A stretch of DNA of 57,592 nt from Neptunicoccus cionae (GTDB taxonomy: Bacteria > Pseudomonadota > Alphaproteobacteria > Rhodobacterales > Rhodobacteraceae): assembly GCF_014643735.1 (NCBI RefSeq), contig NZ_BMKA01000011.1, forward strand, positions 1 through 57,592, in the 5' to 3' direction. Positions within the stretch are counted from its first letter, which is position 1, and every line of letters starts with the position of its first letter. The notes below the pieces were generated by a model, which saw nothing but the letters and a program-made list of their open reading frames with translations, was not told the origin of the DNA and searched no databases. Positions 8,899-29,573 of this stretch are shown one piece after another. The position numbers were made by a program, and so were the translations under genes.

Positions 8899-8910
8899 TT
8901 AGATGTCTAT
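8899..8910. promoter_or_regulatory. Operator copy upstream of usp (TTAGATGTCTAT)
   Basis: One copy of the palindrome TTAGATNNCTAA found upstream of several catabolic operons here. It lies 47 bases before the usp ATG. Confidence 0.6.
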
Positions 8911-8985
8911 GTTTTTTGCCGCGCTTCAAGAGATAGCTAGGTCGCGATAACCGCCAGACATACTGCGTGCCGTTCAAGCATGAAA

Positions 8986-9016
8986 GAGGCCACCCGGATG
9001 TTCTCCGGGCAGCCTC
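8986..9016 (-). terminator. Terminator after amidohydrolase operon
   Basis: Stem arms GAGGC and GCCTC, then CCCGGA and TCCGGG with a 5-base loop, form a long interrupted hairpin. It is followed on the minus strand by CTTTC. It lies about 50 bases past the amidohydrolase stop. Confidence 0.6.
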
Positions 9017-9067
9017 GCAGTGATCCGTATATGCGTGTCCTGTTGAAGACGGACGACGAGAACGGCG

Positions 9068-10306
9068 TCAACCTTTGGCGTTTGCCTCCAGTTTCCACTC
9101 GGACATAACTGGGTCAAGATTGAACAGTTTCTGCGCGTTTCCACCTAGAATGCTCCGCTTGGCCTTCTCGTCCAAGAACGGAAGGTCATAGATCGTGCTC
9201 GGAAGATCCATATCCCAATGCGGATAGTCGGACGAATAGAGCAACTGCGATTCTGCGTTTATCATCTTGAAGGTGACTTCCAAGGCTTCGCGGTTGTCCA
9301 CCAGCTCCATCGGCTGCGTAGAGTAGTACATCTCACGCATGTAATCGCTGGGTTTTTTCTTCAAGAGCGGAGCATCGGACGTACGCATCATGTACTCGTT
9401 GTCCAGCCGTTGCATCAGGAAAGGAACCCAAGCCAGACCACTTTCGATCCACATGGTTTTCAGCTTTGGAAAACGCTCGGGCATGCCGTTCATAACCCAG
9501 TTGGTCATGTGGATGATGTTACAGAAGCTGAAACCAAGCGCGTGAACTGAGATAAACTTGTTCAGCTGTGCCAACGAGGTGTCGGCCCAGTGATAAGCCG
9601 CGTGGAAGCCAAGAGGCATTCCATGCTCTTCCAGTTTGGCATAAATACGCATGTTTGCGCTGTCATGCACTGGCCGCTTGAGATACCCAGTCGAAAGGAA
9701 CCCAACGACGCCTTTCTTTTCGGCGAACTCGTCAATCATCTTCTCGGCTTCGTGCGGCTCGTTCATGGGCAGATAGACCATGGATACGAGGCGATTGTCT
9801 TCTTCAAGAATGCGCTCGCTCAGCCAACGGTTATAGGCGCGGGCCATTGCCACCTCGACCTCGACTTGGGGGTGCGTTGCCAACAACAGCATTGGGGTTG
9901 GGAAAAGGCACGCCATATCCGTACCCATCGCGTCCATCCAGCGCCGTGCCAAAGTGATGTCGCGGTGTGGTTCTTCGGGGACAATTTCCTTGTTCCGACC
10001 CGCATAGCGCGTCACGCGCCCAGCCATGTCCTGCGAACCGATCGCCTGCGGAATAAGGCCGGCGCGGCCAACGTTACCGGCTGACAAGCCAAGATGGCGC
10101 ATCACCGGGTCGTCCATGTATTGCAGGATTTCCGGCAAGGCCTCAGTCTCATAGTGGTGGCTGTCCACATCGCAAATGAAGAAGTCTTTGTAATTACGGT
10201 CTTCCGCTTGCTTACGTGCGTTCTTCAGCAGCTTGCTGGTGTTAAATTCCTGTATCGCCGGATCGTTATCCGAGCTGTAGTTCATCGTGTTGCCCGTCAA
10301 AGACAT
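9068..10306 (-). CDS. Amidohydrolase-superfamily protein (PF04909 type)
   Basis: This 412-residue TIM-barrel metalloenzyme of the Amidohydrolase_2 group carries a metal-site motif DVDSHHYE near the N-terminus and SDYPHWDMD near the C-terminus. Relatives include aromatic-acid decarboxylases, hydrolases and, in at least one natural-product pathway, an oxygen-activating hydroxylase. The ATG at 10306 has GGGGAGAG upstream; an earlier in-frame start at 10348 does not. It is the third gene of an operon with a Rieske ferredoxin and a 99-residue protein, under a MarR-type divergent promoter. That partnership is unusual for a hydrolase. The substrate is unknown, probably an aromatic acid connected with phthalate. 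Confidence 0.8.
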   Translation of the reverse strand: MSLTGNTMNYSSDNDPAIQEFNTSKLLKNARKQAEDRNYKDFFICDVDSHHYETEALPEILQYMDDPVMRHLGLSAGNVGRAGLIPQAIGSQDMAGRVTRYAGRNKEIVPEEPHRDITLARRWMDAMGTDMACLFPTPMLLLATHPQVEVEVAMARAYNRWLSERILEEDNRLVSMVYLPMNEPHEAEKMIDEFAEKKGVVGFLSTGYLKRPVHDSANMRIYAKLEEHGMPLGFHAAYHWADTSLAQLNKFISVHALGFSFCNIIHMTNWVMNGMPERFPKLKTMWIESGLAWVPFLMQRLDNEYMMRTSDAPLLKKKPSDYMREMYYSTQPMELVDNREALEVTFKMINAESQLLYSSDYPHWDMDLPSTIYDLPFLDEKAKRSILGGNAQKLFNLDPVMSEWKLEANAKG

Positions 10307-10326
10307 TTTATCTCTCTCCCCTCGTG

Positions 10327-10626
10327 TTACGGATTCAGCGTCTGCCACATGCCCAACTCGAACACCGCCATATCGGCGGCATCGAGAATGCCGGTCGCGG
10401 CGATGGCGACAGCTGTCGCCGAGACATCGTTGTCTCGTGGGAATGCGGGCAAGCCGTCATTGGTTTCGCGAAGTTTCGCATATGCGGTCACAGCGTGTGA
10501 AAGCAGCGCCTGAAGTTGCTCGGCGCGCAGGCCACTGCTTTCGGGGTTGCGCAGTGCATTCAGGACAGCATCGACCGATGCCTCCAGAGCAGGAGCTTCA
10601 GCGGCTATCTGGTCAAACTTCGACAT
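10327..10626 (-). CDS. Small conserved-looking protein, 99 residues, unknown
   Basis: I do not recognise this protein. It is 99 residues, acidic and alanine-rich, predicted mostly helical, with no signal peptide or cysteine motif. The ATG at 10626 has GAGGAGGTGAGG just upstream and overlaps the end of the Rieske ferredoxin gene by 14 bases. The amidohydrolase start lies 21 bases after its stop. The tight packing between an iron-sulfur protein and a metalloenzyme suggests a subunit or assembly factor of that pair. This is inference from position only. Confidence 0.75.
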   Translation of the reverse strand: MSKFDQIAAEAPALEASVDAVLNALRNPESSGLRAEQLQALLSHAVTAYAKLRETNDGLPAFPRDNDVSATAVAIAATGILDAADMAVFELGMWQTLNP

Positions 10627-10978
10627 AGACCTCACCTCCTCTTTCCACCACGTTGTAACGTTTCATTTTGTACTTTGGATCGCCAACGGCTTCGCCCGTC
10701 GCAATCTTGAATTCCCAGCCATGCCACGGGCAAACGAAATGCAGTTCGTCTTCGTTGAAGGTCTGCCGGAGCGCGCGCTGCTGGTCGTCGAGTTCGACGC
10801 AGACCTGCGGCATCTTTAGGCCTTCGCATACCGGGCCACCTTGGTGCGGACACACGTTCTTATATGCAACGATGTCTCCTTTGTGCCGAATGACCCCGAT
10901 CTCGACCCCGTCGACCTCGCAAATCTTTGCCGTCTTGTCGCTCAAGTCCGACACCGCACATAGCAATCTTTCTGGCAT
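10613..10978 (-). CDS. Rieske-type [2Fe-2S] ferredoxin
   Basis: This 121-residue soluble Rieske protein has the cluster ligands CPH and CPWH (CPHQGGP...CPWHGWEF), with a longer than usual insert of about 45 residues between them. The ATG at 10978 follows GGAGGAG; an upstream in-frame start is less likely. As the first gene of the amidohydrolase operon it probably donates electrons to the neighbouring enzyme or to a ring hydroxylase. The phthalate dioxygenase in this window is of the two-component type, whose reductase has its own ferredoxin domain, so it should not need this protein. Confidence 0.85.
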   Translation of the reverse strand: MPERLLCAVSDLSDKTAKICEVDGVEIGVIRHKGDIVAYKNVCPHQGGPVCEGLKMPQVCVELDDQQRALRQTFNEDELHFVCPWHGWEFKIATGEAVGDPKYKMKRYNVVERGGEVYVEV

Positions 10979-11016: not shown

Positions 11017-11035
11017 TAGTAAGATTGCCTTACTA
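11017..11035. promoter_or_regulatory. 19-bp palindrome in the Rieske/marR divergent promoter
   Basis: TAGTAAG, 5-base spacer ATTGC, CTTACTA: a perfect 7-bp inverted repeat 39 bases before the ferredoxin start. It is typical of a MarR operator. Confidence 0.65.
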
Positions 11036-11063: not shown

Positions 11064-11075
11064 TAAGACATCTAA
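11064..11075. promoter_or_regulatory. Operator copy between Rieske operon and marR
   Basis: TAAGACATCTAA (reverse complement TTAGATGTCTTA) belongs to the shared TTAGATNNCTAA motif set. It lies 19 bases before the marR GTG and 86 bases before the ferredoxin ATG. Confidence 0.6.
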
Positions 11076-11093
11076 ATTAGGGGGGCGCAAATC

Positions 11094-11546
11094 GTGCCGC
11101 AATCACCTTCTAGGAAACGTGGTCTTGGGGCGTCGCTCCGCCTGGCGCATCATCTTTATGGTAAGCTGCTGCAGGAGCAGTTGCGCGAAACCGGGCTCAG
11201 CATGGCGCAGTACATTCATCTCCGGTGCCTGAGAGAGGAAGGCAAACTAAAACAATCCGAGCTTTCCGGGTTGCTGGGCATCGAAAAGGCGTCATCTACA
11301 CGCGTACTGGACGAGCTCGAAAAGCGAGATCTTATCACGCGTAACCGCAGCCAGTCCGACCGGCGCGTGGTTCATGTCGACCTGACTGACACAGGCCTTC
11401 GAAGGATCGATGGCGCAATGAAATCTGCGCGTCTCGCGGCAGATCACGCCTCGGCGGGATTTGAACCCGACGAGTTGGGTCGCCTTTTCGCTGCGATGGA
11501 CAAGCTTCTGGATAATCTCGCAAGCGTGTGTTGCCAGTCCCGCTAA
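11094..11546 (+). CDS. MarR-family transcriptional regulator
   Basis: This 150-residue winged-helix protein matches the MarR pattern: LKQSELSGLLGIEKASSTRVLDELEKRDLITR for the recognition helix and RNRSQSDRRVVHVDLTDTG for the wing. The start is GTG at 11094, preceded by a GGGGGG purine run. It is divergent from the Rieske-amidohydrolase operon, with two palindromic sites between them. It is a candidate for the repressor that reads the TTAGATNNCTAA motif found before several catabolic operons; the other candidate is the MarR protein at 23221-23736. The ligand is unknown. Confidence 0.85.
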   Translation: MPQSPSRKRGLGASLRLAHHLYGKLLQEQLRETGLSMAQYIHLRCLREEGKLKQSELSGLLGIEKASSTRVLDELEKRDLITRNRSQSDRRVVHVDLTDTGLRRIDGAMKSARLAADHASAGFEPDELGRLFAAMDKLLDNLASVCCQSR

Positions 11547-12478
11547 CCAAACCTTGGCGCAAGGGCGAGAAGTGTCACACCGGTCGCGGCCAGTGCAGAC
11601 GCCAGGTAGAATCTGGGACCTGGGCGCCGTTCGGTTTTGAAGATATGGCCTGCGAGCCAGGCGGCAAAGAACATCTCGATCGATGACATGATCGCGACGA
11701 CGGTCACATCAGTAAATATAAGCGAAAAGAACAGCGCCACTTGTCCAACGGTCATCGAACCGCCAGCCAGAAGTTGCCACCCGCTCGGCCGCTGAATTCG
11801 CCAGGACAGCGCGTTGCGCGATTTGAACCGGAACACCCAGGAGACCGCGAACCACATTAGACCCGTCATCGCACCGATGAACACGCCGGCCAGAGGGTCT
11901 GGCAAAGTCTGCATCGCGAGTTTTCGGGAGACGAAAGAGCCACCATATCCGGCGGCCGACGCTACGGCCATCGCGCGGCCCTTGTTCCTCTCTAGAGGGG
12001 CGGGCTCTCCGACCGCTAAGTCAGAAGCCGATTTGACAGAAGCGCGTGACATCATGACCACCACGCCGCTGGTAACCAGAAAGAAGGCGATGACCACAGG
12101 TGTGGTGATGACCTCACCCAGCAGAAAGAACGCCAACAGCGCCGCAAACACCGGTATCAGGCGTCGGATGAAACCGGTCTCGATGGCTCCGGCAAGCTCT
12201 ACGGAGCGAAACAGCGTAAGACGGCCGACAACGTTGCCAAGCACCCCGGCTGCAACGAAATAGGCCACACCAATGAGTACACCGCGTCCAAGTTCCGGCA
12301 TCGTTGGACCCAGGAGCAGCCAAAGCGCCCCGGAGACAACGGCGGTCATCAGCACAGAGATAAGAACGTCGTTGCCGCGGCCCTGAACCGATTGGGAGCT
12401 CTTGGCAATGGAAACCGAACTCAAGGCGTAGCAGAACGCTCCGAACGCGGCCAAGAGGCCACCGAACCCCGCGGTCAT
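11543..12478 (-). CDS. EamA/DMT-family membrane transporter
   Basis: This 311-residue integral membrane protein has about ten hydrophobic segments arranged as two EamA repeats, the pattern of drug/metabolite transporters. It is the last gene of the pht2-pht4-pht5 operon, 27 bases after the small protein gene, and converges on marR with a 4-base overlap of stop codons. The position suggests import or export of phthalate or a dihydroxyphthalate intermediate. The substrate cannot be read from sequence. Confidence 0.85.
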   Translation of the reverse strand: MTAGFGGLLAAFGAFCYALSSVSIAKSSQSVQGRGNDVLISVLMTAVVSGALWLLLGPTMPELGRGVLIGVAYFVAAGVLGNVVGRLTLFRSVELAGAIETGFIRRLIPVFAALLAFFLLGEVITTPVVIAFFLVTSGVVVMMSRASVKSASDLAVGEPAPLERNKGRAMAVASAAGYGGSFVSRKLAMQTLPDPLAGVFIGAMTGLMWFAVSWVFRFKSRNALSWRIQRPSGWQLLAGGSMTVGQVALFFSLIFTDVTVVAIMSSIEMFFAAWLAGHIFKTERRPGPRFYLASALAATGVTLLALAPRFG

Positions 12479-12505
12479 CGCGCCTGTCGGCGCGGATTGT
12501 TCCTG

Positions 12506-12949
12506 CTACTCGTCATGGGCCAGCAACTGATCCAGGAAGTGGCCTGAAGACATAACCTCGCGCATTGGCAGCGTCTCCTGCTGCTCCATCAGCTCGGTAG
12601 AATAGGTCAACCCTTGGCCGTCCCAGAACCACCAATAGATGATCTTGCCTTGCTTGTCGCGAATCGGCATCCGGAAAATCGGGAAGCTTCTTTCCGAATG
12701 CGGAATGTCCGACCTTCCGGCAAGCGCGTGCTTCAACCCTAACCGATTCAATACCCCCGTTAGGGGGACCATGGCTATCGGTGCGGGTTTTTCGGCCAAT
12801 ACAGTCACATTGTCGGGCCGGTGTTCGTAAGACCCCGGGAGGAACTTGACCACGGGAGGATAGCTCGGGTGGGTATGTGTGAGCTGTACGTAAGCCAGCC
12901 CCTTCGTTGTTTCGACCTCGACGATATCTCCGGGTGCGTACTTTTCCAT
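12506..12949 (-). CDS. Uncharacterised 147-residue protein in the phthalate operon
   Basis: I do not recognise a family. The protein begins MEKYAPGDIVEVET, a start reminiscent of small beta-barrel (SH3-like) proteins, and contains the aromatic stretch IIYWWFWDGQGL. No signal peptide or membrane segment is visible. The ATG at 12949 has GAGGAG upstream and is only 13 bases after the 4,5-dihydroxyphthalate decarboxylase stop, so the two are almost certainly co-transcribed. A structural or regulatory role in decarboxylation or ring hydroxylation is possible but unsupported. Confidence 0.75.
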   Translation of the reverse strand: MEKYAPGDIVEVETTKGLAYVQLTHTHPSYPPVVKFLPGSYEHRPDNVTVLAEKPAPIAMVPLTGVLNRLGLKHALAGRSDIPHSERSFPIFRMPIRDKQGKIIYWWFWDGQGLTYSTELMEQQETLPMREVMSSGHFLDQLLAHDE

Positions 12950-12962
12950 TGTGGCGCTCCTC

Positions 12963-13955
12963 TTAAAGGCTGTAGGCTTCTAGGGTCGAGGGATGGAACA
13001 GTTCTTCGATCTCCACCCGGCGCGGCGACAGTCCCTGACTCGCGTGGTAATCCAAAAACTTGTTCAGGACATGGGCGTTGCCGCCGACGCCATAGCTCCA
13101 GGGGTCGTCACCCATTAGCGCATGCACGCGGTTGAGATTATCCTCGACGAAGGGCATCGTTACTTTCGTTGCAGAGGTGTCCGACAGGGCCTCTTCTGCT
13201 ATTAGCTTCGATTGCGTGAACGCCTTGAGCAGGGCGGCGGGTAGGAACGGGTATTCCTCGGCGAGGCTGCGGCGCACCCCAAGAACATGCATGATCGGAA
13301 AGATCCGGGTCTTTTCGAAATAGGCTTCGGCCGTAGCGATGCTGTCTGCAAAAAGCCGACCTACGTGCGGATGCCGCTCGGCGAAACAACGCGGCCAACG
13401 CGGGCCGACGAAGCCGTCGATCTCACCGGCTTCGAGCATGCCATTCAACGTGCTGCCGACCGGCGCCTCTTCCATGCGGATATCGCCGGGTAACTGAACC
13501 TTGATCTTTTCGGGCCGGCCCGGCGTATCCATACCGCCGCGCACCCAGATGATGTCGGAGGGTTTGACACCGTATTCCTCTTCGAGAATGCCGCGCACCC
13601 AGACATTGGCGGACAGCTGGTATTCGGCGATCCCAATGCGCTTGCCCCTCAGATCCTGAGGCGTTTCGATTCCTTTGTCGGTTCGAATGTAGACAGAAGT
13701 GTGACGGAACGCCCGGCTCAGAAAGACCGGGATCGCGACATAGTGCGGATTTCCGCGGGCGACCGAGATCGAATAGGAGGACAACGAAATTTCGCTGATA
13801 TCGAAAGCTTCGTGGCGGAACGCCCGGAAGAACATTTCCTCTGGGGACAGTAGCATGGGCACGGGATCGACACCGTCTATCTGCACTCTTCCATCCACAA
13901 TGGCACGCGTCCGGTCATAATTTCCCATGGCAAGGGATAGTTTGAGATTGCTCAT
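12963..13955 (-). CDS. pht5: 4,5-dihydroxyphthalate decarboxylase
   Basis: This 330-residue protein resembles 4,5-dihydroxyphthalate decarboxylases, which have a periplasmic-binding-protein-like fold. Supporting blocks are the N-terminal LSLAMGNYDRTRAIVDGRVQ, a DISEISLSSY region and the DLRGKRIGIAEYQLSANVWVRG stretch. It would convert 4,5-dihydroxyphthalate to protocatechuate and CO2 in the cytosol, joining the pht and pca pathways. The start overlaps the end of pht4 as ATGA and has GAGGAGGAAC upstream. The assignment is strengthened by pht4 and pht2 directly before it in the same operon. Confidence 0.85.
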   Translation of the reverse strand: MSNLKLSLAMGNYDRTRAIVDGRVQIDGVDPVPMLLSPEEMFFRAFRHEAFDISEISLSSYSISVARGNPHYVAIPVFLSRAFRHTSVYIRTDKGIETPQDLRGKRIGIAEYQLSANVWVRGILEEEYGVKPSDIIWVRGGMDTPGRPEKIKVQLPGDIRMEEAPVGSTLNGMLEAGEIDGFVGPRWPRCFAERHPHVGRLFADSIATAEAYFEKTRIFPIMHVLGVRRSLAEEYPFLPAALLKAFTQSKLIAEEALSDTSATKVTMPFVEDNLNRVHALMGDDPWSYGVGGNAHVLNKFLDYHASQGLSPRRVEIEELFHPSTLEAYSL

Positions 13956-15139
13956 CCAGTTTGTTCCTCCTCATTTGTTTTGCATTGTTGCCGCAGGTCG
14001 ACAGGTTGGCCGGTCGAGGCGGACTGCAGGATCGCATGGCAAACCTCCAGGCTTGCCAGACCCCACGCGCCCGTCTGGACGGGGGCCTTGTTCTGGCGGA
14101 CAGCGGCTACCAGTGCATCGTTCACGGTTCTACGTGGCGCGGGCCCGAATGTCACTTCGATGAAGCCACGCTCGGTGTCACCAAATACTTCAACTCCGTC
14201 CGGAGTCAGCTTTAGGTCGGCACGGTCGCAAAGCGCGATGACTGGGCCAAAATGCTCGTTGTGCTTTGCGTCGACCGTCTTACCGCTGCCGAATGTGCGC
14301 GTCGTCTTGAGGCGCGCCTCGTCATCGGGATCGAGGTCCATCAGCGCCCGCCTTGCATCGCCATAGGCGCCGGCGAGTTTTCGCTGCCCCAGCTCTCCGA
14401 CGTCGTTCATCCAAATGTCGCTATCGAAATGGGCATAGCCCGAATAGGTGAGATTGGCGACGCATCCACCCTCAAAGTTCATCAGCGCCGTAAAGGCGCC
14501 TTCTGTTGGACGCTTTGGATCCCATGCCCCGGTCATGGCATAAATCTTCTCTCCCATGCCGCCCGCAAGCCGTCGGACCACGTCGATCTGGTGGATGGCC
14601 TGGCTGAACAGCACCCCTCCTCCTTCTTCGGTGCGCAGCTCCTCCGGGCGTCGGGGACGATACAGGAAGTCAGTGTAGTTAAGGGCCTGGATCATTCTCA
14701 GCTGGCCGAACTTGCCGCTCGCGATCAACTGCGCGGCCAGCTCGACCGGCGGATCGAAACTGTGGCTGGGCCCAACGATCAGGTGAACCCCCGCCTCGTT
14801 CGCGGCGGCGACCATGGTCTCGGCGTCTTCCATCGAGATCGCGAGCGGCTTTTCCACGAGAATGTGCTTTCCAGCGCGCGCCGCGGCCAGAACGTGATCT
14901 ACATGCATTTGGTGCGGGGTGGCGATGTAGATCGCTTCCACAGATGGATCGGCGCATAGTTCCTCGACAGTCGGATAGGCGACACCGCCGTATTGCTCTT
15001 CGAATGCGGCCCGGCTTTCCGCCCTCGGCGCGGCCGCGGCCGTGAGCTTGACGCGTGCGTCGGCATCAAAGGTGGGGACCATCAGCATGAAAGCCCGCCC
15101 CAATCCCGCAACTCCGAGGCGGACGGGATCAGAGGTCAA
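13952..15139 (-). CDS. pht4: cis-4,5-dihydrodiol phthalate dehydrogenase (Gfo/Idh family)
   Basis: This Gfo/Idh/MocA oxidoreductase has an N-terminal Rossmann fold (GVAGLGRAF) and the family signature EKPLAIS. In this operon it most likely oxidises the cis-dihydrodiol made by phthalate dioxygenase to 4,5-dihydroxyphthalate, using NAD(P)+. There is no ATG at the N-terminus. The best start is the TTG at 15139, seven bases after GGGGAGG and overlapping the pht2 stop by 11 bases, which gives 395 residues. The long frame starting at 15172 would add 11 residues read from within pht2. Its end overlaps pht5 by 4 bases. Confidence 0.8.
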   Translation of the reverse strand: MTSDPVRLGVAGLGRAFMLMVPTFDADARVKLTAAAAPRAESRAAFEEQYGGVAYPTVEELCADPSVEAIYIATPHQMHVDHVLAAARAGKHILVEKPLAISMEDAETMVAAANEAGVHLIVGPSHSFDPPVELAAQLIASGKFGQLRMIQALNYTDFLYRPRRPEELRTEEGGGVLFSQAIHQIDVVRRLAGGMGEKIYAMTGAWDPKRPTEGAFTALMNFEGGCVANLTYSGYAHFDSDIWMNDVGELGQRKLAGAYGDARRALMDLDPDDEARLKTTRTFGSGKTVDAKHNEHFGPVIALCDRADLKLTPDGVEVFGDTERGFIEVTFGPAPRRTVNDALVAAVRQNKAPVQTGAWGLASLEVCHAILQSASTGQPVDLRQQCKTNEEEQTG

Positions 15140-16067
15140 GAACCAGCCTCCCCGATAGCGCGCGCGATACACAAATCATGATATGGTCGCTCTTTTCCTC
15201 TTCCATAAGCACCATGTCGCGATGGTCAGCTTCCCCTTCGAGGAGGCGGGTCTTGCAGGTGCCGCATGTGCCACTTTCACACGAACTGGATGTTGCGAAT
15301 CCGGCGTCACGCAATGCTTCCAAGATCGAACGATCTTCGGGCACCGTGACGGTTTCGCCACTTTTTTTCAGCTCCACTTCGAAAGAGATATCGTCTTGGC
15401 GCACCACATCGACGGGCTTGAAATCCTCGAAGTGAATTCGCCCCTCCGGCCAGTGCCCGGAAACGGCCTTGATTTCATCCATCAGCGGTTTCGGGCCACA
15501 ACAGAACACATGAGTGGCACGGGGTGTGACCAGATCGTCCCAGAAATCGTAGACCGCATCCGGAGCGCCGCCGTCATGGTGCACAATGATCCGGCCATCG
15601 AAATCTCTCATCAGTTCATCCAGATAGGCCGATTCCTCCGGACTGCGGCTGACGTAGATGATTCTGAGCATCTTGCCCTTCTTGTCGAGATACCGCGCCA
15701 TCGACAGAATTGGCGTGATCCCGATACCGCCGGCGATGAGCAGGTACTTCTGAACATCGGTTAGCGGGAAATCGTTTTCCGGGAACTCGACTGTCAACTC
15801 GGAGCCGACGGTCGCCTGTTCGTGCATCGACGCGGAGCCCCCGCGCGAATTCGGCTCTTTCTTGATCGCGACAACAAACTCCTTCGGGTCGCTGCCATCG
15901 TTGATCAGTGAATAGCGGCGCATTGCGCCGGACGGAGTTTCCAAGGTGATGTGAGCACCAGGATCGAAACTAGGGAGTACATCGTCTCCAACCGGCACCA
16001 GGGTGAATTCGGTGATGCTCGGGGTCAAGTCACGCCGTTTCTCGACGCGCATCTTGATATTCTCCAT
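15129..16067 (-). CDS. pht2: Phthalate dioxygenase reductase (PDR/VanB type)
   Basis: This 312-residue reductase has three domains in order: an FMN-binding barrel with RRYSL (about residue 50), an NAD(H) domain with GGIGITP (about 113) and CCGP, and a C-terminal plant-type [2Fe-2S] domain with Cys263, Cys268, Cys271 and Cys299. That is the arrangement of phthalate dioxygenase reductase and vanillate demethylase reductase. It passes electrons from NADH to the oxygenase encoded at 17482-18762. The start has GGGAGGACC directly upstream, and the shared operator (TTAGATAGCTAA) lies 36 bases before it. First gene of the pht2-pht4-pht5 operon. Confidence 0.88.
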   Translation of the reverse strand: MENIKMRVEKRRDLTPSITEFTLVPVGDDVLPSFDPGAHITLETPSGAMRRYSLINDGSDPKEFVVAIKKEPNSRGGSASMHEQATVGSELTVEFPENDFPLTDVQKYLLIAGGIGITPILSMARYLDKKGKMLRIIYVSRSPEESAYLDELMRDFDGRIIVHHDGGAPDAVYDFWDDLVTPRATHVFCCGPKPLMDEIKAVSGHWPEGRIHFEDFKPVDVVRQDDISFEVELKKSGETVTVPEDRSILEALRDAGFATSSSCESGTCGTCKTRLLEGEADHRDMVLMEEEKSDHIMICVSRALSGRLVLDL

Positions 16068-16102: not shown

Positions 16103-16114
16103 TTAGATAGCTAA
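16103..16114. promoter_or_regulatory. Operator copy upstream of pht2 (TTAGATAGCTAA)
   Basis: Perfect TTAG-N4-CTAA match to the shared motif, 36 bases before the pht2 ATG. Confidence 0.65.
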
Positions 16115-17353: not shown

Positions 17354-17416
17354 CACGCCTGTCGCCCGTCGAGCAGAATCCGTCGAGGCAAGCTATGAAA
17401 GTCCGACGGCACCATG

Positions 17417-17449
17417 AAAAAAGAGCCGCCCAAAACCCCTTGAGGCTCT
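17417..17449 (-). terminator. Rho-independent terminator after pht3
   Basis: On the minus strand AGAGCC and GGCTCT flank a 16-base loop and are followed by TTTTT. It lies 33 bases after the pht3 stop. Confidence 0.7.
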
Positions 17450-21754: not shown

Positions 21755-21870
21755 GTAGACCCCGTATAAGGCAGAGAAGAGAAAGAACCGCGATGTATGG
21801 GCCGCGCGATGACATGACGTGACATCTCACGTAGCCACCGCGGGGCATTGCTCTGTGCAGTCGATGAGTG

Positions 21871-21903
21871 GGCCGGCGCGTGTCGTTGCAGCGCGCGCCG
21901 GCC
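21871..21903 (-). terminator. Strong hairpin between TAXI receptor and permease
   Basis: GGCCGGCGCG and CGCGCCGGCC form a perfect 10-bp GC stem with a 13-base loop, 18 bases past the receptor stop. There is no T-run. It could be a partial terminator or an mRNA-stabilising hairpin giving more receptor than permease. Confidence 0.6.
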
Positions 21904-21920
21904 GGATCGCGGGATCGACC

Positions 21921-22910
21921 TTAATTGAGCAGACCCAGTTCTTTGTAGGCACGCTCCGCACCAGGATGGAACGGCAGCGTGGTCTGCGACGTCAGAAGTT
22001 CCGGTGTGAGCGCCTGCATCGCCTTATGCACGCCGCGGATCTCGTCGATATTGGACGCGATGCTCTTTGCGAGCATGTAGCCAGTTTCTTCTGGCAGTAC
22101 GTCGGAAGTGATCACCATCGCACCCAGTGCGAGCGTGACGACATCTTCGGTCTGGTTCTTGTAGCTGTTGGCTGGAATTGTGAACGTGCCGGTTCCGAAA
22201 CGCTCGTTGGTCGCAGCGATGATGTTTTCGGGAACGCTGAGCAACACGACGTCATTGCCCTCGTCAACTTTACGGAACGACGAATGTCCGATGAAAATGC
22301 CGTTGATCACCATATCGGTGCGGCCGTCTGCAATCAGATCTGCTTGCTGTGACGAACCACCGCGGACAAGCACGCCGCCATTGGACTCGATCGTGGCTTC
22401 GTCGTAGCCCGCCTCTTCGAGCATGAAGGTCGTGATGTTGGCGACGATGTTCCCGGCATTGTTGTTCGCAACACGGATCGCCGCGCCGGACGTCGCGAGG
22501 TCGTCAATGCTGTCGATGCCATATTCTTCGGCAAGAGACTTCTTGATGAAGAAGTGCATCGGCGCCCAGTTGTACATGTAGCCGATGGCTTGAAGGTTCT
22601 CGATCGGCGCGTCAAACGGTTCGTCCCCTGCGAGGGCCAGCTTGATCTCGGCATCATGTGCCATCCCCAGGTCGGTCCGTTCACGGCCCAGAAGGCCGAT
22701 GTTCGCAAAGCCACCCCCGGTGGCCTGATAGGTCACCACGCCGCTCGGGTCATCCGCCTTGACGGCACGGTCAATACCAGCGCCCAGAAGCGACCAAAGC
22801 CCCGAGGGATTGCCGCCTGAAAGGGTCACATTAACGCTTTCTGCGGAAGCAGCGCTCGCAAGAACCGCAAGGCCGATCGATGCGGCAACGGCTTTGATTG
22901 GAAATTTCAT
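21921..22910 (-). CDS. TAXI-family TRAP transporter solute receptor
   Basis: This 329-residue periplasmic binding protein starts MKFPIKAVAASIGLAVLASAASA, a signal peptide cut after ASA. The TAXI/NMT1-type domain follows, with the GGNPSGLWSLLGAGIDRAVK block. The ATG at 22910 has GGGAGGAAG upstream; a frame opening at 22937 adds nine unlikely residues. Two adjacent copies of the shared operator lie 21-45 bases upstream, the strongest operator arrangement in the window. It delivers the substrate, probably phthalate, to the permease encoded next. Confidence 0.88.
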   Translation of the reverse strand: MKFPIKAVAASIGLAVLASAASAESVNVTLSGGNPSGLWSLLGAGIDRAVKADDPSGVVTYQATGGGFANIGLLGRERTDLGMAHDAEIKLALAGDEPFDAPIENLQAIGYMYNWAPMHFFIKKSLAEEYGIDSIDDLATSGAAIRVANNNAGNIVANITTFMLEEAGYDEATIESNGGVLVRGGSSQQADLIADGRTDMVINGIFIGHSSFRKVDEGNDVVLLSVPENIIAATNERFGTGTFTIPANSYKNQTEDVVTLALGAMVITSDVLPEETGYMLAKSIASNIDEIRGVHKAMQALTPELLTSQTTLPFHPGAERAYKELGLLN

Positions 22911-22930
22911 GTCTTCCTCCCTGTTTTCAG

Positions 22931-22955
22931 TAGACATCTAATATTAGATATCTAT
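22931..22955. promoter_or_regulatory. Double operator upstream of the TAXI receptor
   Basis: TAGACATCTAA at 22931-22941 (inverse TTAGATGTCTA) and TTAGATATCTAT at 22944-22955 lie side by side, two copies of the shared motif 21 bases before the start codon. Confidence 0.65.
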
Positions 22956-23220: not shown

Positions 23221-23736
23221 TCAGTTTGCTGTGTTGCCCTTGGTCGGGGGAACACGGACCCCTCTGGCGGCCGCATCCTGTTCGTCATTTTCGAGGTTCC
23301 GGATCATCACGGCAAGTGCGTGTCGCAAGTCTTCCTGAGCTTTCTTGGACAGTCCCGCCATCGCTGCATCGTTCACTTCGAGCGCCAGAGGTTCGAGAAC
23401 GTCGCGCAGCTCCAAGCCCTTCCGCGTCAGAAACGCGTGCTGGCGCCGTTTGTTGCCCTCGACGTTGCGTCGCTCTATGAAACCCAATTCTTCCATTTTG
23501 ATGAGCGCGGTGTGGGCGGTGGGTTCGGTGAGATGCGCCCGGTCGCTCAGTTCGCGTTGCGACAACCCGTCTTCCTGCCAGAGGATGCGCAGGAAAATCC
23601 ACTGACCGAACGTAACATTTTCCGTTTGCAGTCGAAGTTGAAGCGCCCGGTTGAACCCGCGGGCCGCCAGTCGTACCAGCCGGGCCATGCGCTCGTCGGG
23701 TTGGACAGGTACGTGGCTTGATTGCTTTTCTTTCAT
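23221..23736 (-). CDS. MarR-family transcriptional regulator (second)
   Basis: This is a MarR/HpaR-type winged-helix regulator of about 171 residues, with LSQRELSDRAHLTEPTAHTALIKMEELGFIERR for the recognition region and RRQHAFLTRKG for the wing. The ATG at 23736 is chosen; a TTG at 23778 and a GTG at 23763 are in frame upstream, and none has a strong ribosome site. The half-conserved operator TTGATAGCTAAG at 23798 lies just upstream, which would fit autoregulation. It sits next to the TRAP receptor promoter, making it the closest regulator to the pht and transport genes. Confidence 0.82.
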   Translation of the reverse strand: MKEKQSSHVPVQPDERMARLVRLAARGFNRALQLRLQTENVTFGQWIFLRILWQEDGLSQRELSDRAHLTEPTAHTALIKMEELGFIERRNVEGNKRRQHAFLTRKGLELRDVLEPLALEVNDAAMAGLSKKAQEDLRHALAVMIRNLENDEQDAAARGVRVPPTKGNTAN

Positions 23737-23778
23737 CGCATCGCTCACGGCCTGTCTCCACACATGGTTTTTATCCAA

Positions 23779-24134
23779 ACAGCGCGCCCGCCCGGACTTG
23801 ATAGCTAAGAACTCCAGAGTTGTGGCGCGCGCAACATAGGTGCCGAGCCTTGGTACAAAGTCAAGACATGGAAGCCGGGGTGCCTATCGTTGGGCCCGAG
23901 TATGGACTTTCTTCCGGGGTGGTTTTGCCCCTGTGTCGGGATTGTGCGCCGGTTGCTTTCCAGTACGCGACCATCATGCGCCGACACCTGCCTTGCACCA
24001 CTGTGCCGCACAGCGCCGGGCAACCGTTGTGTAACGCCTCCGGCAAACCCGGCGCGGTTCACGGCCATTCAATAGGTGCAAGGAACATAGGCTCTGCAGT
24101 TCGGCTGTGCACACCGTTCGCGCGGAGGGGTTGG
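23779..24134. other. Intergenic stretch upstream of marR2
   Basis: About 350 bases hold the degenerate operator at 23798 and otherwise no gene I can support. Overlapping short frames on both strands lack ribosome sites and recognisable motifs. Confidence 0.4.
23798..23809. promoter_or_regulatory. Degenerate operator copy upstream of marR2
   Basis: TTGATAGCTAAG shares GATAGCTAAG exactly with the pht2 site but lacks one base of the left half. It lies 62 bases before the marR2 ATG. Confidence 0.45.
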
Positions 24135-25169
24135 TCAGTTCAGATCGTTCAACTTTTGTCGCCAGCGTTCCACCACATCGGGGTTCCTGACATATGTCGG
24201 CAGATCACCTTTCATGATGCGTGTTGCGTTTTCGACGAGGACGTCGGGCATGACCGTGTAGAGATCAATGGTGTGGCCCAGGATATGCGGGGTGAGGATC
24301 ACCCGGTCGAGGCCGCGCAGCGGGTGGTCGGCGGGCAGCGGTTCGGTTTCCGTCACGTCCAGCCCCGCACCGGCCAGGTGTCCTGCTGTCATCACCCGCA
24401 CCAGCGCATCCTCGTCAATGAGACCCCCGCGCGAGGTGTTGATCAGAACCGCATTTGTCTTCATCGCGCGCAGTTCCGCCTCGGCAATCATGCCTCGCGT
24501 CTGCGCGTTGAGCGGCACATGCAGGCTGACCACATCGGACGTGGTCAGCAGCGCGTCGCGCTCCACCAACCGTACGCCCGCGGGTGCGGTGTCAGGTGTC
24601 AGGAACGGATCGTGCACCAGGATCTGTGCCGGCTCGAACGCCAGCAGTCGCTCGATCACCCCGGCCCCAATCCGGCCAGACCCGATCAGGCCGATCGTCC
24701 GGCCCCGCACCATCCGCGCATACATCTGCTGCGGCCGGCCCGCATTTTCGCGTAGCAGGCGTTCGGATTCATGCAGCCGGTACAGCAGCACCAGCATCAG
24801 CATCACTGTCGCCTCTGACATCGCCAGAAAGTTCTCGGGCGTTGCACCATTGGCCACGATCAGACCACGCGCGGCACAGGCCTCCAGATCGACCGCATCC
24901 ACCCCGATCGTCGGAAAGACCAGCGCCCGCAGCCGTGGTGAGGCATCCAGATCCGCCTCGCTCAGCCGCGACCGCGAGCTGGCCACGATGATATCAACGT
25001 CCGACAGCAGCGCCTGCCGTTGCTCTTCCGTCAGCCGCAGCGGAACACCCGGGGTGATCTGGGGGCCGCGAACGACCTCCCAGCCTTCGGCCCGCAGCCG
25101 ATCCGTTGCGGTGTCCAACACCTCTTCCAGCACAGGATCCTGCGCAATATAGATCTTCGGGGTCATCAT
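24135..25169 (-). CDS. D-2-hydroxyacid dehydrogenase
   Basis: This 344-residue NAD-dependent D-isomer 2-hydroxyacid dehydrogenase has the Rossmann motif GLIGSGRIGAG, the catalytic Arg in INTSRGGLID, Glu in ETEPLPADHPL and His in TPHILGHT. It interconverts 2-oxoacids and D-2-hydroxyacids in the cytosol. Its start overlaps the stop of the thiamine-diphosphate enzyme gene by one base, so the two are co-translated. Together they suggest metabolism of a 2-hydroxy or 2-oxo acid; the FMN enzyme at 16208 could handle the opposite enantiomer. The real substrate is unknown. Confidence 0.85.
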   Translation of the reverse strand: MMTPKIYIAQDPVLEEVLDTATDRLRAEGWEVVRGPQITPGVPLRLTEEQRQALLSDVDIIVASSRSRLSEADLDASPRLRALVFPTIGVDAVDLEACAARGLIVANGATPENFLAMSEATVMLMLVLLYRLHESERLLRENAGRPQQMYARMVRGRTIGLIGSGRIGAGVIERLLAFEPAQILVHDPFLTPDTAPAGVRLVERDALLTTSDVVSLHVPLNAQTRGMIAEAELRAMKTNAVLINTSRGGLIDEDALVRVMTAGHLAGAGLDVTETEPLPADHPLRGLDRVILTPHILGHTIDLYTVMPDVLVENATRIMKGDLPTYVRNPDVVERWRQKLNDLN

Positions 25170-26938
25170 CAGTCGCTCCGCGTCAGGCCAGCGACCATGT
25201 TGGGGTTATACCCCGGCTGGACACGTGCATCGATCACTACGCTCTTGCCCGCGCGCACCATCTCGACGCCCTGTTTGATCGCCTCGACCAGCTCGCCCGC
25301 GGTAAAGACCGGGCCGATCCCTTCGCAGCCCTGCGCCCGCGCAACTCCGGCAATGTCGATATCCGGATCACCGATACGCTGGCCGATCCACTTGTTCTCG
25401 ACCGGGCGGTTGCGGGCCACTGCCACGCGTTCCTGGTGCACCTCGTCATTGTAGAACGAGCGATTGTTCGACACCACCGCCAGGAACGGAGTGCCATAAT
25501 GCGCCGCCGTCCAAAATGCCGAGGCCGCCATCATGAAGTCGCCGTCCCCAAGAACCGCAACAGGCAGCCGGTCGCTGTCTTTCAGCGCCAGCGCCGCCCC
25601 GATCAGCATCCCAGGACCCGAGCCGATCCCCGCGCCGCCATCCGAACCCAGGAAGTCCAGCGGATGACGGAAGTGCCACGCCTCGCCCGCCCAACCCAAC
25701 GGCCAACGCACAAAGCTGGCACAGACACCTTCCAAACCTTCGCCAAGCGCCCCGGCCAGCGTCATGATATCAAGCTCAACATCTGCATCGGGGGCGTTCA
25801 GCGCGGGTTTGACCGGCAAATCACCGGGCATCTCGCCCGCCCCTACACCCAGGGCATCGGCAATCGCATGCATCGCAACATCCGGGCCACAGGCCAGGTG
25901 CAGATCCAGCGCAGGCAGCGCCTGATGCTCCATCCCCCAGCCATTGTGCAGCTGATAATCCAGCGACGCCTGGATCACCTGCGCCGTCACTTCGCCCGCC
26001 AGTTTCAGCGTACCCGCGACATCCAGCCAGTCCAGACTCAGGATCACATCGGCCTCGCGCAGCACCGCGCCCGCCGCGTCGTCGATGAAGAAGGCTGGTT
26101 TACCCCGATGCCGCGGGTGATCCGTCGGGAAAGACGCCCCGATCCGGATATCCGTCAGAACCTTCGCCCCCAGCCCCTCGACAAAGGCCACACGCCGCGC
26201 CCAATCCGCCGGATCGCGCGACACCCGCCCCGCCAGCACCACAGGCGCCTTGGCGTTCTTCAGCAGGTCCGCCGCACGTGCCACGCCTTCGGCCGAAGGA
26301 GCCGCAGGCAAAGGCGGCTGGTAACGCGCAAAATCCGGCAGCGCCGGGGCCTGCGCGTGCTGCTTTTCCTGGATCGACACATCAAAGTTCACATAGGTCG
26401 GCCCTTTCGGCTCGCTCCGCGCGATCACATCCGCACGCAACATCGATTCCAGCGCCGCCTCCATCGAGCCAGGCTGATCGTCCCATTTCACATAATTCCG
26501 GATCATCGACGCCTGGTCACGGCAGGTATGGAGCCAGTCAATCCAAGGACGCCGCAGCGCCGCATCAACCGGCCCCGTCGCACCATAGATCAGCACAGGA
26601 ACCCGATCACACCATGCGTTGAAGATCGCCATCGTCCCATGCATCAGACCCACGTTGCTGTGCAGAATCACCGCCAATGGCTCCCCCGTCACCTTCGCAT
26701 AGCCATGTGCAATCGCAACCGCATGCTCTTCGTGCAGACACAACAGCATCTGCGGATCTTCATTACCAAGGTGGTTCACAAGGCTGTCATGCAAACCCCG
26801 AAAGCTCGACCCAGGGTTCAGCGCAACATACTTCACCCCCAAACCTCGCAACATATCCGCAAATACATCGCTACCCCAAACTCCCAAACTATCCGACGAT
26901 ACTGGGCGCTCAACCTGATACAGCCTGTGCTCTGTCAT
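25169..26938 (-). CDS. Thiamine-diphosphate-dependent decarboxylase-like enzyme
   Basis: This 589-residue enzyme is of the acetolactate synthase/benzoylformate decarboxylase superfamily. The N-terminal pyrimidine-binding domain contains the catalytic Glu in LHEEHAVAIAHGYAK. The C-terminal domain has the ThDP motif GDGDFMMAASAFW...NNRSF. A central domain lies between them. It would decarboxylate or ligate a 2-oxoacid. It is the first gene of a two-gene operon with the D-2-hydroxyacid dehydrogenase and is insulated from nadC by a terminator. Benzoylformate-type decarboxylation is plausible because an aldehyde dehydrogenase and a mandelate-type dehydrogenase are nearby. Confidence 0.82.
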   Translation of the reverse strand: MTEHRLYQVERPVSSDSLGVWGSDVFADMLRGLGVKYVALNPGSSFRGLHDSLVNHLGNEDPQMLLCLHEEHAVAIAHGYAKVTGEPLAVILHSNVGLMHGTMAIFNAWCDRVPVLIYGATGPVDAALRRPWIDWLHTCRDQASMIRNYVKWDDQPGSMEAALESMLRADVIARSEPKGPTYVNFDVSIQEKQHAQAPALPDFARYQPPLPAAPSAEGVARAADLLKNAKAPVVLAGRVSRDPADWARRVAFVEGLGAKVLTDIRIGASFPTDHPRHRGKPAFFIDDAAGAVLREADVILSLDWLDVAGTLKLAGEVTAQVIQASLDYQLHNGWGMEHQALPALDLHLACGPDVAMHAIADALGVGAGEMPGDLPVKPALNAPDADVELDIMTLAGALGEGLEGVCASFVRWPLGWAGEAWHFRHPLDFLGSDGGAGIGSGPGMLIGAALALKDSDRLPVAVLGDGDFMMAASAFWTAAHYGTPFLAVVSNNRSFYNDEVHQERVAVARNRPVENKWIGQRIGDPDIDIAGVARAQGCEGIGPVFTAGELVEAIKQGVEMVRAGKSVVIDARVQPGYNPNMVAGLTRSD

Positions 26939-27014
26939 GTGTTTTGGCCTTTCCTTATGAAGTGTTGATGCAGCAGCGCCCCATTTTGAAAGGCGTACGC
27001 AATAGGTATTTATT

Positions 27015-27033
27015 GCCCGCCGAAAGGGCGGGC
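27015..27033 (-). terminator. Terminator after nadC
   Basis: GCCCGCC and GGCGGGC form a 7-bp stem with a 5-base loop about 38 bases past the nadC stop, with AT-rich sequence on both sides (AATAAAT on the minus strand). Confidence 0.7.
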
Positions 27034-27070
27034 ATTTTGCATTTCAGACGGTCTGGAGCGGTTCAGAGGA

Positions 27071-27922
27071 TCAGAAATCCAAACCGAAATCGACGGTCCC
27101 CGCCGAATGGGTCAAAGCACCGGAGGAAATATAATCCACATTTGCCGATGCGATTTCGCGCAAACGGCCAAGGGTCACATTCCCGCTGGCTTCTGTCTTC
27201 GCCCGCCCGTCAATGCGCTTTACGGCTTCGGCCATGTCTTCGGTCGACATATTGTCAAACATGATGACATCTGCGCCCCCGGTCTGAAGCACCTCGTCCA
27301 ACTGATGCAAACCGTCGATCTCGATCTCGACCACGACCATGTGACCCACATTTCGCTGAACGGCTTCCAACACCTGTTTGATGCCACCAGCCGCTGCGAT
27401 ATGGTTGTCCTTGATCAGGATTGCATCGGACAGGGAAAACCGGTGATTGTGGCCGCCGCCATGCAAAATCGCGAGTTTCTCGACAAGCTTCAGCCCCGGT
27501 GTGGTTTTGCGTGTACAGGTGATACGTGTCTTGGTACCCGCAAGTTCCTGCACATAGGACGCTGTCAAAGTTGCCGTCCCGGACAACCGCCCGGCAAAGT
27601 TCAGGGCAACACGCTCTGCGGCAAGGATCGACGCCGCCGATCCCTCTATACGCATCAAGGTATCGCCCGTTTTGCAGGCCGTACCATCCGCGACAACAGT
27701 CTCGACAATAAGATCGGGATCAATCAGCCGAAACGCCAGAGAGGCCACCTGCATCCCAGAAACAACCGCGTCCTGCCGTGCACGCATTTGCGCCTTGTAG
27801 CGCGTGCCTTCAGGCAGAACGGAACGGGTTGTCACGTCGCCTGCTGCACCCAGGTCCTCCACAATGGCGTTCCGAACCATAGGTTCGAGGATGATATCGG
27901 GGACGTTCGCAACATTGCTCAT
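27071..27922 (-). CDS. nadC: Quinolinate phosphoribosyltransferase (NadC)
   Basis: This 283-residue nicotinate-nucleotide pyrophosphorylase (carboxylating) makes nicotinate mononucleotide from quinolinate and PRPP in NAD synthesis. The family block CTRKTTPGLKLVEKLA, then GGGHNHRFSLSD and LIKDNH, and the C-terminal YISSGALTHS are all present, so it looks intact. It follows the aldehyde dehydrogenase on the same strand, 126 bases away, without nadA or nadB. Phthalate is a structural analogue of quinolinate and binds this enzyme family, so a second copy in a phthalate cluster may protect NAD synthesis. That role is inference. Confidence 0.9.
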   Translation of the reverse strand: MSNVANVPDIILEPMVRNAIVEDLGAAGDVTTRSVLPEGTRYKAQMRARQDAVVSGMQVASLAFRLIDPDLIVETVVADGTACKTGDTLMRIEGSAASILAAERVALNFAGRLSGTATLTASYVQELAGTKTRITCTRKTTPGLKLVEKLAILHGGGHNHRFSLSDAILIKDNHIAAAGGIKQVLEAVQRNVGHMVVVEIEIDGLHQLDEVLQTGGADVIMFDNMSTEDMAEAVKRIDGRAKTEASGNVTLGRLREIASANVDYISSGALTHSAGTVDFGLDF

Positions 27923-28048
27923 TATTTTTCAGATCCTTGTCGGTTTGCAGAAAGGGTAGGAAGGGATGGTCTCATCCCGGCCAAAGCAATCAATAAAGAA
28001 AAAGCTTTTGGATCCCAGACCCCGTTCGCACATTACCTCTGCACCGGG

Positions 28049-29527
28049 TTACTGACCCGACAGATTGATATGCACATTCTTTTCATGGGTGAAGGAAATC
28101 AGCTCGCCAATACCTTCTTCGCGCCCGATACCCGATTGTTTGACCCCACCGAACGGGGCACCAAGGAAATGCCGGCCAACTTCGTTAACCCAAACAAACC
28201 CGGCCTCGACACGAGCAGCCGTGCGATGAGCCGTAACCAAGTCCCGAGTCCAAATTGCGCAGGTCAGCCCCAGCTCAAGTGCGTTGACCTCGTTCAGCAT
28301 GGAATCTTCGTCCGACCATTTGCGGACCGCCAGAACTGGCCCGAAAATCTCTTCGCGAGCGATACGCATCTGCGGCGTTACATCCGCAAAAATCGTCGGC
28401 GCAACGAAGTTCCCCTGTGCCAGCGCACCTTCGGTCACTGCATGGCCGCCGGTTACGGCCCGCGCGCCTTCGCTCTTGGCGGATTCGATGAAGTCCATGA
28501 TCCGATCGAACTGTGTCCGGCTGACGATCGCCCCCATCGTGGTCTCCGGCTCTGTCGGAATGCCTGGCTTGTACCGTTCGACAGCCGCTTTGAGATGTGA
28601 GATGACCGCATCGTGGATGTCTACATGCAAGAAAGCGCGGCTCGTCGATCCGCAAGATTGCCCGCACCAGCCGAAATTCATGCCGCCGACGATCGCATCG
28701 GCGATCTTCTTCGGATCGCTGTCCGGATAGGCGATCAGCGCGTTCTTGCCGCCGAGTTCGAGCAGCACTGGTTTGACGGTGTCGCTCGCGCTGCGCATCA
28801 CCGCCCGGCCCGCGGGTACGGAGCCGATGAGTGTGACCTTGGCGACGTCGGGATGTTCGGCCAGCCCAGCTCCTGCCTCGACGCCGCCCGGCAGAACATT
28901 GAACGTGCCTTTAGGCAGCAGGCCATCGATGAGCTCCGCCAGCCGCAGCGAAGACAACGGAGCCTGAACCGGCGGCTTGATGATGACGGCATTGCCTGCG
29001 GCCAGAGGCGCTGCCATCTTTCCGCCGCAGAACATGAACGGATGATTAAAGGCAAGAATCCTTGCAACCACGCCCATCGGCTGGCGTAGGGTCATGTTGA
29101 TGCGCTCTGGTCCCATAGGGATCGTATCACCCTTCATTTCGGTCACAAGACCGGCGAAAAACTCCATCTGCGCTGCCGCAATCGCGGCGTCGCCGCGCAT
29201 TTCAGTATAGGGGTTGCCACAGTTTGCAGCGTCCATCATCGCCAGTTCATCGCCATGCTTTCGCAAGAGATTTGCGATTTCCTTCAGGATACGTGCGCGT
29301 TCCAGCGGCACAACATCCCGCCATACCTCGAACCCTTCTTTCGCTGCCGCAACCGCCGCATCGACATCGGCGCGACTTGCCGTCGCAACCGACCCGATCC
29401 GCTCGCCGGTTCCTGGGTTGAAAGTGTCTTCGTACTTTCCCTCTAGTGGCGGCACCCATGCGCCGCCGTAGTAGAGATGGGCTGGTTCTTGAAGAGAGAG
29501 CTTCGCGTCTAGTTTCAGATTTTCCAT
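28049..29527 (-). CDS. NAD(P)-dependent aldehyde dehydrogenase
   Basis: This 492-residue aldehyde dehydrogenase has FNHPF (oxyanion Asn), LELGGKN (general-base Glu) and GQSCGSTSR (catalytic Cys). It oxidises an aldehyde to an acid in the cytosol. The ATG at 29527 has GGGAGGAT upstream, and the operator TTAGACTTCTAA lies 35 bases before it, so it belongs to the same regulon as the phthalate genes. A natural guess is an aromatic aldehyde such as 2-carboxybenzaldehyde, whose oxidation gives phthalate. Sequence alone does not prove the substrate. Confidence 0.85.
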   Translation of the reverse strand: MENLKLDAKLSLQEPAHLYYGGAWVPPLEGKYEDTFNPGTGERIGSVATASRADVDAAVAAAKEGFEVWRDVVPLERARILKEIANLLRKHGDELAMMDAANCGNPYTEMRGDAAIAAAQMEFFAGLVTEMKGDTIPMGPERINMTLRQPMGVVARILAFNHPFMFCGGKMAAPLAAGNAVIIKPPVQAPLSSLRLAELIDGLLPKGTFNVLPGGVEAGAGLAEHPDVAKVTLIGSVPAGRAVMRSASDTVKPVLLELGGKNALIAYPDSDPKKIADAIVGGMNFGWCGQSCGSTSRAFLHVDIHDAVISHLKAAVERYKPGIPTEPETTMGAIVSRTQFDRIMDFIESAKSEGARAVTGGHAVTEGALAQGNFVAPTIFADVTPQMRIAREEIFGPVLAVRKWSDEDSMLNEVNALELGLTCAIWTRDLVTAHRTAARVEAGFVWVNEVGRHFLGAPFGGVKQSGIGREEGIGELISFTHEKNVHINLSGQ

Positions 29528-29561
29528 CTAAGGTATCCTCCCGGCTTGAGGCCCTAATAAC

Positions 29562-29573
29562 TTAGACTTCTAA
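29562..29573. promoter_or_regulatory. Operator copy upstream of aldehyde dehydrogenase (TTAGACTTCTAA)
   Basis: TTAG-N4-CTAA match 35 bases before the aldehyde dehydrogenase ATG and 11 bases from the end of pcaR on its other side. Confidence 0.6.

Follow-up and report, generated by a model that had tools for sequence, protein, structure and literature searches.

Genes for phthalate or terephthalate use are controlled by OphR, TphR and other regulators, which belong to protein families other than MarR. Within the MarR family, HpaR, PcaV, HcaR and CouR combine the MarR fold with what their names indicate, control of aromatic pathways (for CouR as far as an excerpt of its description goes), and the SlyA consensus TTAGCAAGCTAA, as given in an excerpt of PMC5797941, contains the palindromic core TTAG-N4-CTAA. 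Here we analysed a contig of 57,592 nucleotides from Neptunicoccus cionae (NZ_BMKA01000011.1, hereafter the window), in which a palindrome with the same 12-bp core recurs upstream of putative genes for o-phthalate, a plasticiser acid. We assign a probability of about 0.83 to the reading in which a single repressor of the MarR family, MarR2 (23221-23748), uses these palindromes as its operators and would block RNA polymerase at seven regions until phthalate or an early product of it causes release.

Binding of the shared core by MarR2 is a prediction, and the best match of its predicted structure in the PDB is SlyA (1lj9), with PcaV, HcaR and salicylate-bound Rv2887 also in the list. The model shows a MarR/winged-helix fold (predicted local distance difference test score, pLDDT, 87.9), and the 185-residue frame matches PF01047 at 39.6 bits (cut-off 24.6). 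In contrast, MarR2 scores only 27.3 bits against a curated SlyA cut-off of 120 and 42.0 bits against a curated HpaR cut-off of 121.2, and by these cut-offs the predicted protein is neither. Unlike those of SlyA, the island sites lie at phthalate genes, with a preference for A at base 5, and unlike HpaR, PcaV, HcaR and CouR, MarR2 would have phthalate genes as its targets. In the literature covered, which lacked most subscription papers, neither such an operator nor a MarR protein that regulates phthalate genes was found described before. The kind of system, a MarR regulator with a SlyA-type palindrome, is already known, and the predicted regulon, new as far as this literature goes, is well supported by comparison.

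The first-pass annotation of this DNA described a palindrome, TTAGATNNCTAA, shared by seven or more operons. A shared palindrome is indeed present far above chance; that form, however, matches the window exactly only once, at 16103, and the sites fit the working consensus TTAGANNTCTAA (core TTAG-N4-CTAA) with no or one mismatch. Eight sites have at most one mismatch: the positions 8899, 11064, 16103, 18828, 22944 and 29562 were given correctly, 22931 should read 22930, and a site at 160, upstream of the plus-strand gene 239-1678, had been missed. The palindromes and the proposed reader are as follows.

160-171: candidate operator TTAGACCTCTAC, upstream of the exported hydrolase gene; one mismatch; TTGACA at 145-150
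8899-8910: candidate operator TTAGATGTCTAT, upstream of usp
11017-11035: palindrome TAGTAAG-N5-CTTACTA in the marR1-ferredoxin region, proposed MarR1 operator
11064-11075: candidate operator TAAGACATCTAA, between the ferredoxin gene and marR1
16103-16114: candidate operator TTAGATAGCTAA, upstream of pht2; -35 TTGACA on the minus strand at 16128-16123
18828-18839: candidate operator TTAGCTCTCTAA, upstream of pht3; -35 TTGACA on the minus strand at 18853-18848
22930-22955: two candidate operators, GTAGACATCTAA (22930) and TTAGATATCTAT (22944), upstream of the TRAP receptor gene
23221-23748, minus strand: marR2, proposed reader of the operators
23797-23808: claimed degenerate site CTTGATAGCTAA, upstream of marR2; not supported
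29562-29573: candidate operator TTAGACTTCTAA, upstream of the aldehyde dehydrogenase gene (aldh); -35 TTGACA on the minus strand at 29583-29578

The sites end 18 bases before the start codon of marR1, 19 and 33 before that of the TRAP receptor, 34 for aldh, 35 for pht2, 46 for usp, 65 for pht3, 67 for the exported hydrolase and 118 for the Rieske ferredoxin. Between 6000 and 38473, where a gene map lifted from the related locus L006 gives 90% coding DNA, all seven sites with at most one mismatch are intergenic and none is coding; dinucleotide shuffles of the intergenic DNA gave a mean of 0.065 and a maximum of two, and none of 2000 reached seven. Among 30 half-site orderings, TTAGA alone gave more than one intergenic match. 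As the consensus was picked after the window sites had been seen, this test is partly circular, whereas the tests on other loci are not. From 29574 to the end of the window no site with at most one mismatch was found, which agrees with the earlier statement that the pca region lacks it.

Other loci were collected by a search with four pht3 proteins, and the best 80 of 386 were kept (1,465,181 bases). By their record titles nearly all are alphaproteobacterial (Roseobacter-type, Rhizobium-type and Thalassospira-type genera); L016, L041 and L086 are metagenome bins labelled gammaproteobacterial. Within 300 bp upstream of pht3, TTAGANNTCTAA with at most one mismatch was found in 68 of the 80 loci (best alternative ordering, 4) and the exact core in 72, compared with at most one locus for each of 11 permuted orderings and at most three for alternative core spacings of 0 to 12. 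When similar upstream regions were removed so that those kept were below 75% identity, the core remained in 46 of 52. Sites within 260 bp upstream were assigned only to genes similar to 22 window genes: pht3 (73/80), pht2 (60/66), the TRAP receptor (40/57), usp (12/12), the ferredoxin (10/12), MarR1 (10/11), aldh (11/37), EamA (5/42), the thiamine pyrophosphate (TPP) enzyme (4/41), hyp208 (2/30) and IclR (1/2). The earlier links of usp, the Rieske ferredoxin/amidohydrolase group and the TRAP receptor to the motif hence recur in related loci. Of 255 sites in all, one lies inside a window-like gene; for 17 others the nearest 260 bp contain none, and four of these 17 precede hydrolase homologues.

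A MarR-read regulon for phthalate use, as first proposed, is the best account of these data, with the shuffles, the 72 of 80 loci and the co-occurrence of regulator and pathway strongly in its favour. Which of the two MarR proteins (28% identity) would read the motif had been left open, and we picked MarR2 over MarR1 because it accompanies both site and pht3 across genera. Among 394 genomes of the family, MarR2 occurs in 22 (E ≤ 1e-30) and pht3 in 20 (E ≤ 1e-150), with both in 19 (Fisher test, 2.8e-28). In the 80 loci MarR2 was found in 63 (47 at ≥50% identity, 16 at 30-50%); for eight of the other 17 a strong MarR2 lies elsewhere in the genome, and the Thioclava plasmid of L010 also has one, just outside the stretch compared. 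When MarR2 is counted anywhere in the genome, so that these eight of 17 are entered as present, 69 loci have site and MarR2, two MarR2 only, four the site only and five neither (Fisher test, 1e-4, a value confounded by kinship). The MarR2 alignments exclude L058, whose translation held a stop, and L007 and L009 lie outside the gene table of the loci. In addition, the inner bases of the palindrome follow the regulator, base 5 being A at 49 of the 50 sites whose MarR2 is close and at 14 of the 28 whose MarR2 is distant. Co-inheritance can account for part of this pattern, which makes it support short of proof. MarR2 is the likely reader of the palindrome.

A role for MarR1 as reader of the motif, whether by itself or jointly with MarR2, is improbable. 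MarR1 is itself a PF01047 protein and adjoins a site in 10 of the 11 loci that hold it, but at ≥50% identity those 11 are its only occurrences among the 80 loci, whereas the core precedes pht3 in 72; it was found in five of the 394 family genomes, four of them with pht3. Moreover, the marR1-ferredoxin region contains another palindrome, GTAAG-N5-CTTAC being present in all 14 such regions (eight distinct sequences), and its outer A is kept in 12, with G in L016 and L017. L010 and L018 keep this palindrome though the TTAG site of the region is lost. The form AGTAAG-N5-CTTACT has a single exact match, beside marR1, in every one of four MarR1 genomes; with a mismatch allowed, two of the four have one extra match (reversed control, one to five). 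In the window it has a single match with up to two mismatches, but such a match also turns up at least once in 29 of 100 shuffles, and the case for this palindrome rests on its conservation, which may in part reflect the ferredoxin promoter itself. MarR1 as the sole reader of TTAG-N4-CTAA was rejected on these grounds, and it is instead an accessory gene with a different palindrome beside it. A further site in the window, at 11047 with two mismatches, was rejected as it is altered in L010, L018, L027 and L029.

The position of the sites within promoters bears on the mode of action. In 46 of 70 nonredundant pht3 sites the first base of a TTGACA-like box (at least 5/6) is found, on one or both strands, 13 or 14 bases ahead of the palindrome; at other offsets the same 70 sites give a mean of 0.66 and a maximum of three. 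If the spacer is 17 bases, the start of the -10 box falls on the final three bases of the palindrome, which is the case at pht2 and pht3 of the window. The TTGACA offset in the window is 10 for aldh and 12 for the TRAP receptor, and for the exported hydrolase it is 15, compared with 13 in L006. In other genera, many divergent pht2/pht3 promoters have a palindrome for each direction, the two being separated by about 60 bp. A protein bound at such sites, between the -35 and -10 boxes, would cover the promoter, so that occlusion is the simplest reading, and repression by promoter occlusion is the best candidate mechanism. MarR-family members are able both to activate and to repress, according to an excerpt of PMC5797941, and MarR2 might activate at these sites; we consider this quite unlikely, as a protein bound between the two boxes would hinder the polymerase.

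In the proposed repression by MarR2, a dimer would bind TTAG-N4-CTAA, commonly between the -35 and -10 boxes, and would block RNA polymerase at seven promoter regions: those of the exported hydrolase, usp, marR1/ferredoxin, the pht2 operon, the pht3 operon, TRAP uptake, and the operon of aldh, nadC, the TPP enzyme and the hydroxyacid dehydrogenase. Phthalate or an early phthalate product would release the repressor, so that release of phthalate, uptake and ring attack would be turned on jointly; the pca genes retain regulators of their own. MarR1 would act as a second, narrower regulator of the ferredoxin/amidohydrolase promoter through the palindrome at 11017-11035. The analysis establishes the sites, their statistics and conservation, the promoter register and the co-occurrence; binding, repression and ligand are inferred. 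If correct, the operator reveals which genes cooperate in phthalate use and serves as a tracer that adds the exported hydrolase, the nadC operon and the stress protein to the phthalate genes. For many alphaproteobacteria, including plasmid-borne islands, o-phthalate catabolism would thereby gain an operator open to test and a named regulator, and the two together could be tried out as a component of a phthalate sensor.

An IclR (29584-30342) or LysR (6983-7948) regulator as reader is very improbable and was rejected. Both genes flank the island, and an IclR relative at ≥65% identity is found in 8 of 20 pht3 genomes but in none of 20 genomes without pht3; MarR2, however, is present in 19 of the 20, and a close LysR relative in only four. 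Both regulators are also rare within the 80 loci, though 10-kb flanks would often miss them.

Several observations weigh against control by MarR2. L015 and L047 have MarR2 but no site before pht3 (sites lie elsewhere in both loci), while on four short contigs (3.9-12.6 kb) with the site no MarR2 was found. Most loci that lack the site are among the more divergent, and part of the MarR2 association can arise from joint inheritance within a single gene cluster. At the usp promoter no clear -35 box stands in register. MarR2 itself has no upstream site, and a MarR-family gene without its own site is unusual for the family. The first-pass annotation had placed a degenerate site before marR2 at 23798; it lies at 23797, where CTTGATAGCTAA differs from TTAGATATCTAA by three mismatches, a site within 260 bp upstream of MarR2 was found in only 4 of the 63 loci holding the gene, and the best upstream match has at least three mismatches in 57 of 66 cases. 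Both this site and marR2 autoregulation were rejected. Furthermore, the concentration is weaker in some genomes: among the matches with at most one mismatch listed for individual genomes, only 7 of 14 sites in G348 are at island genes (six on contig C22 and one on C5, beside a nadC end), and only 8 of 28 in G415 (all four exact matches being among the eight) and three of eight in G417 are on the pht3 contig. A reversed control pattern outnumbers the motif genome-wide in eight of eight genomes (38 in G001, 23-138 in the other seven).

The motif is thus not frequent genome-wide but is concentrated. In G001 (5.4 Mb), the nearest of the genomes covered, whose contig C8 has the island at the coordinates of plasmid pTPRO7, seven of the ten sites with at most one mismatch are in the island and three elsewhere (two inside genes, one intergenic). 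In G230, 14 of 19 are on contig C3, which bears two phthalate islands about 50 kb apart, both containing a MarR2 and a pht3 of their own. An origin by chance or through an AT-rich promoter composition, which the AT-rich sites, their place in promoters and the commoner reversed pattern could suggest, has a negligible probability, as shuffles and permuted palindromes fail to reproduce the motif counts and five paired sites of the window and L008 keep 9-12 of 12 bases where their flanks keep 11-23 of 40.

Two members that the operator adds deserve attention. Homologues of the exported hydrolase have a core site upstream in 12 of 14 rows, four exact (L055, L058, L059, L066) and eight with one mismatch; none was found upstream of those in L190 and L191. 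L006 and L185 are the same DNA, which leaves 11 of 13 places with the site, and the eight one-mismatch rows are close relatives. Gene 239-1678 is 93.7% identical to a gene of CP031591 that is annotated, by annotation only, as o-phthalyl amidase, an activity known from Xanthobacter agilis (excerpt of PMC1940265). GCSG, GD and H are invariant in five exported hydrolase sequences, which suggests a putative serine hydrolase; Pfam gives only a sub-threshold Tannase match, and the predicted model is poor (mean pLDDT 51.5). A nearly identical relative of this gene occurs on many marine plasmids.

The nadC gene of the window sits in the operon behind the site at 29562, and 17 of the 80 loci have a nadC close to pht3 (in 10 it belongs to the aldh group, in five it comes just after pht3 and in two it is beside pht5). 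Phthalate binds human quinolinate phosphoribosyltransferase with a dissociation constant of 5.2 µM, compared with 4.8 µM for quinolinate, and is called inhibitory in an excerpt of PMC4726147. In the literature covered, with the gap in subscription papers given above, no report linking nadC with phthalate catabolism was found. Of seven genomes searched, three have a second full nadC (G001, G230, G412), two the island copy only (G413, and G348, where it is in two pieces that lie at contig ends and may belong to a single gene) and two none (G264, G414); a spare copy would thus fit some hosts, and elsewhere the island copy would be the sole one. Our tentative suggestion, to which we give somewhat less than even odds, is that the regulon guards the host from its own substrate, nadC being co-expressed as phthalate, a quinolinate look-alike, blocks a step of nicotinamide adenine dinucleotide synthesis, and that the same repressor controls an exported hydrolase freeing phthalate from amides or esters. 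If true, a single switch would cover the path that leads from an extracellular conjugate to protocatechuate.

The island families, a Rieske oxygenase with a LigXa_C domain, a reductase, a Gfo/Idh dehydrogenase, an NMT1-like protein and TAXI-TRAP uptake, are predicted functions that fit o-phthalate use, and in the annotation of L006 the pca genes for protocatechuate come after the phthalate genes. The names pht2, pht4 and pht5 are those that we take to apply from knowledge of the pathway. The name pht3 is applied to such an oxygenase in the annotation of CP031591. Operon limits are our own estimates.

239-1678, plus strand: exported hydrolase, with a signal-peptide-like start; homologue annotated as o-phthalyl amidase
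6983-7948: LysR regulator, flanking the island
8028-8852, minus strand: universal stress protein gene usp (PF00582)
9068-10306, minus strand: amidohydrolase, ferredoxin/amidohydrolase group
10327-10626, minus strand: 99-residue protein, same group
10613-10945, minus strand: Rieske ferredoxin, within 9068-10945
11094-11546, plus strand: marR1 (PF01047)
11543-16067, minus strand: pht2 reductase, pht4 dehydrogenase, pht5-like protein, 147-residue protein and EamA transporter
16208-17350, minus strand: flavin mononucleotide (FMN)-dependent hydroxyacid dehydrogenase, within 16208-18762
17482-18762, minus strand: pht3 oxygenase, within 16208-18762
19074-19649, minus strand: 191-residue protein, within 19074-22910
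19850-21700, minus strand: fused TRAP permease, within 19074-22910
21921-22910, minus strand: TAXI-TRAP receptor, within 19074-22910
24135-25169, minus strand: 2-hydroxyacid dehydrogenase, within 24135-29527
25169-26938, minus strand: TPP enzyme, within 24135-29527
27071-27922, minus strand: nadC, within 24135-29527
28049-29527, minus strand: aldehyde dehydrogenase (aldh), within 24135-29527
29584-30342: IclR regulator, flanking the island

The FMN-dependent hydroxyacid dehydrogenase, the TPP enzyme and the aldehyde dehydrogenase resemble a mandelate-type chain, which might supply phthalate from 2-carboxymandelate or phthalonate via 2-formylbenzoate. In L008 (14585-26173) the genes of the FMN dehydrogenase, the hydroxyacid dehydrogenase, the TPP enzyme and the aldehyde dehydrogenase appear to be in pieces, while the operators and nadC persist. 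Positions 8000-30400 of the window are nearly identical to a stretch of the Salipiger profundus plasmid pTPRO7 (98.7%) and to stretches of eight Phaeobacter plasmids (96.8-97.0%); two further Phaeobacter plasmids carry more distant copies (about 81% over 52% of the query), as does a Thioclava plasmid (76% over 28%). TniQ/TniB/Mu-type transposase genes adjoin the island at 2584-5889, which suggests that it is mobile. The L010 plasmid record holds, at 1-213, a short BKC-1 beta-lactamase stretch, which is a PLSDB prediction only.

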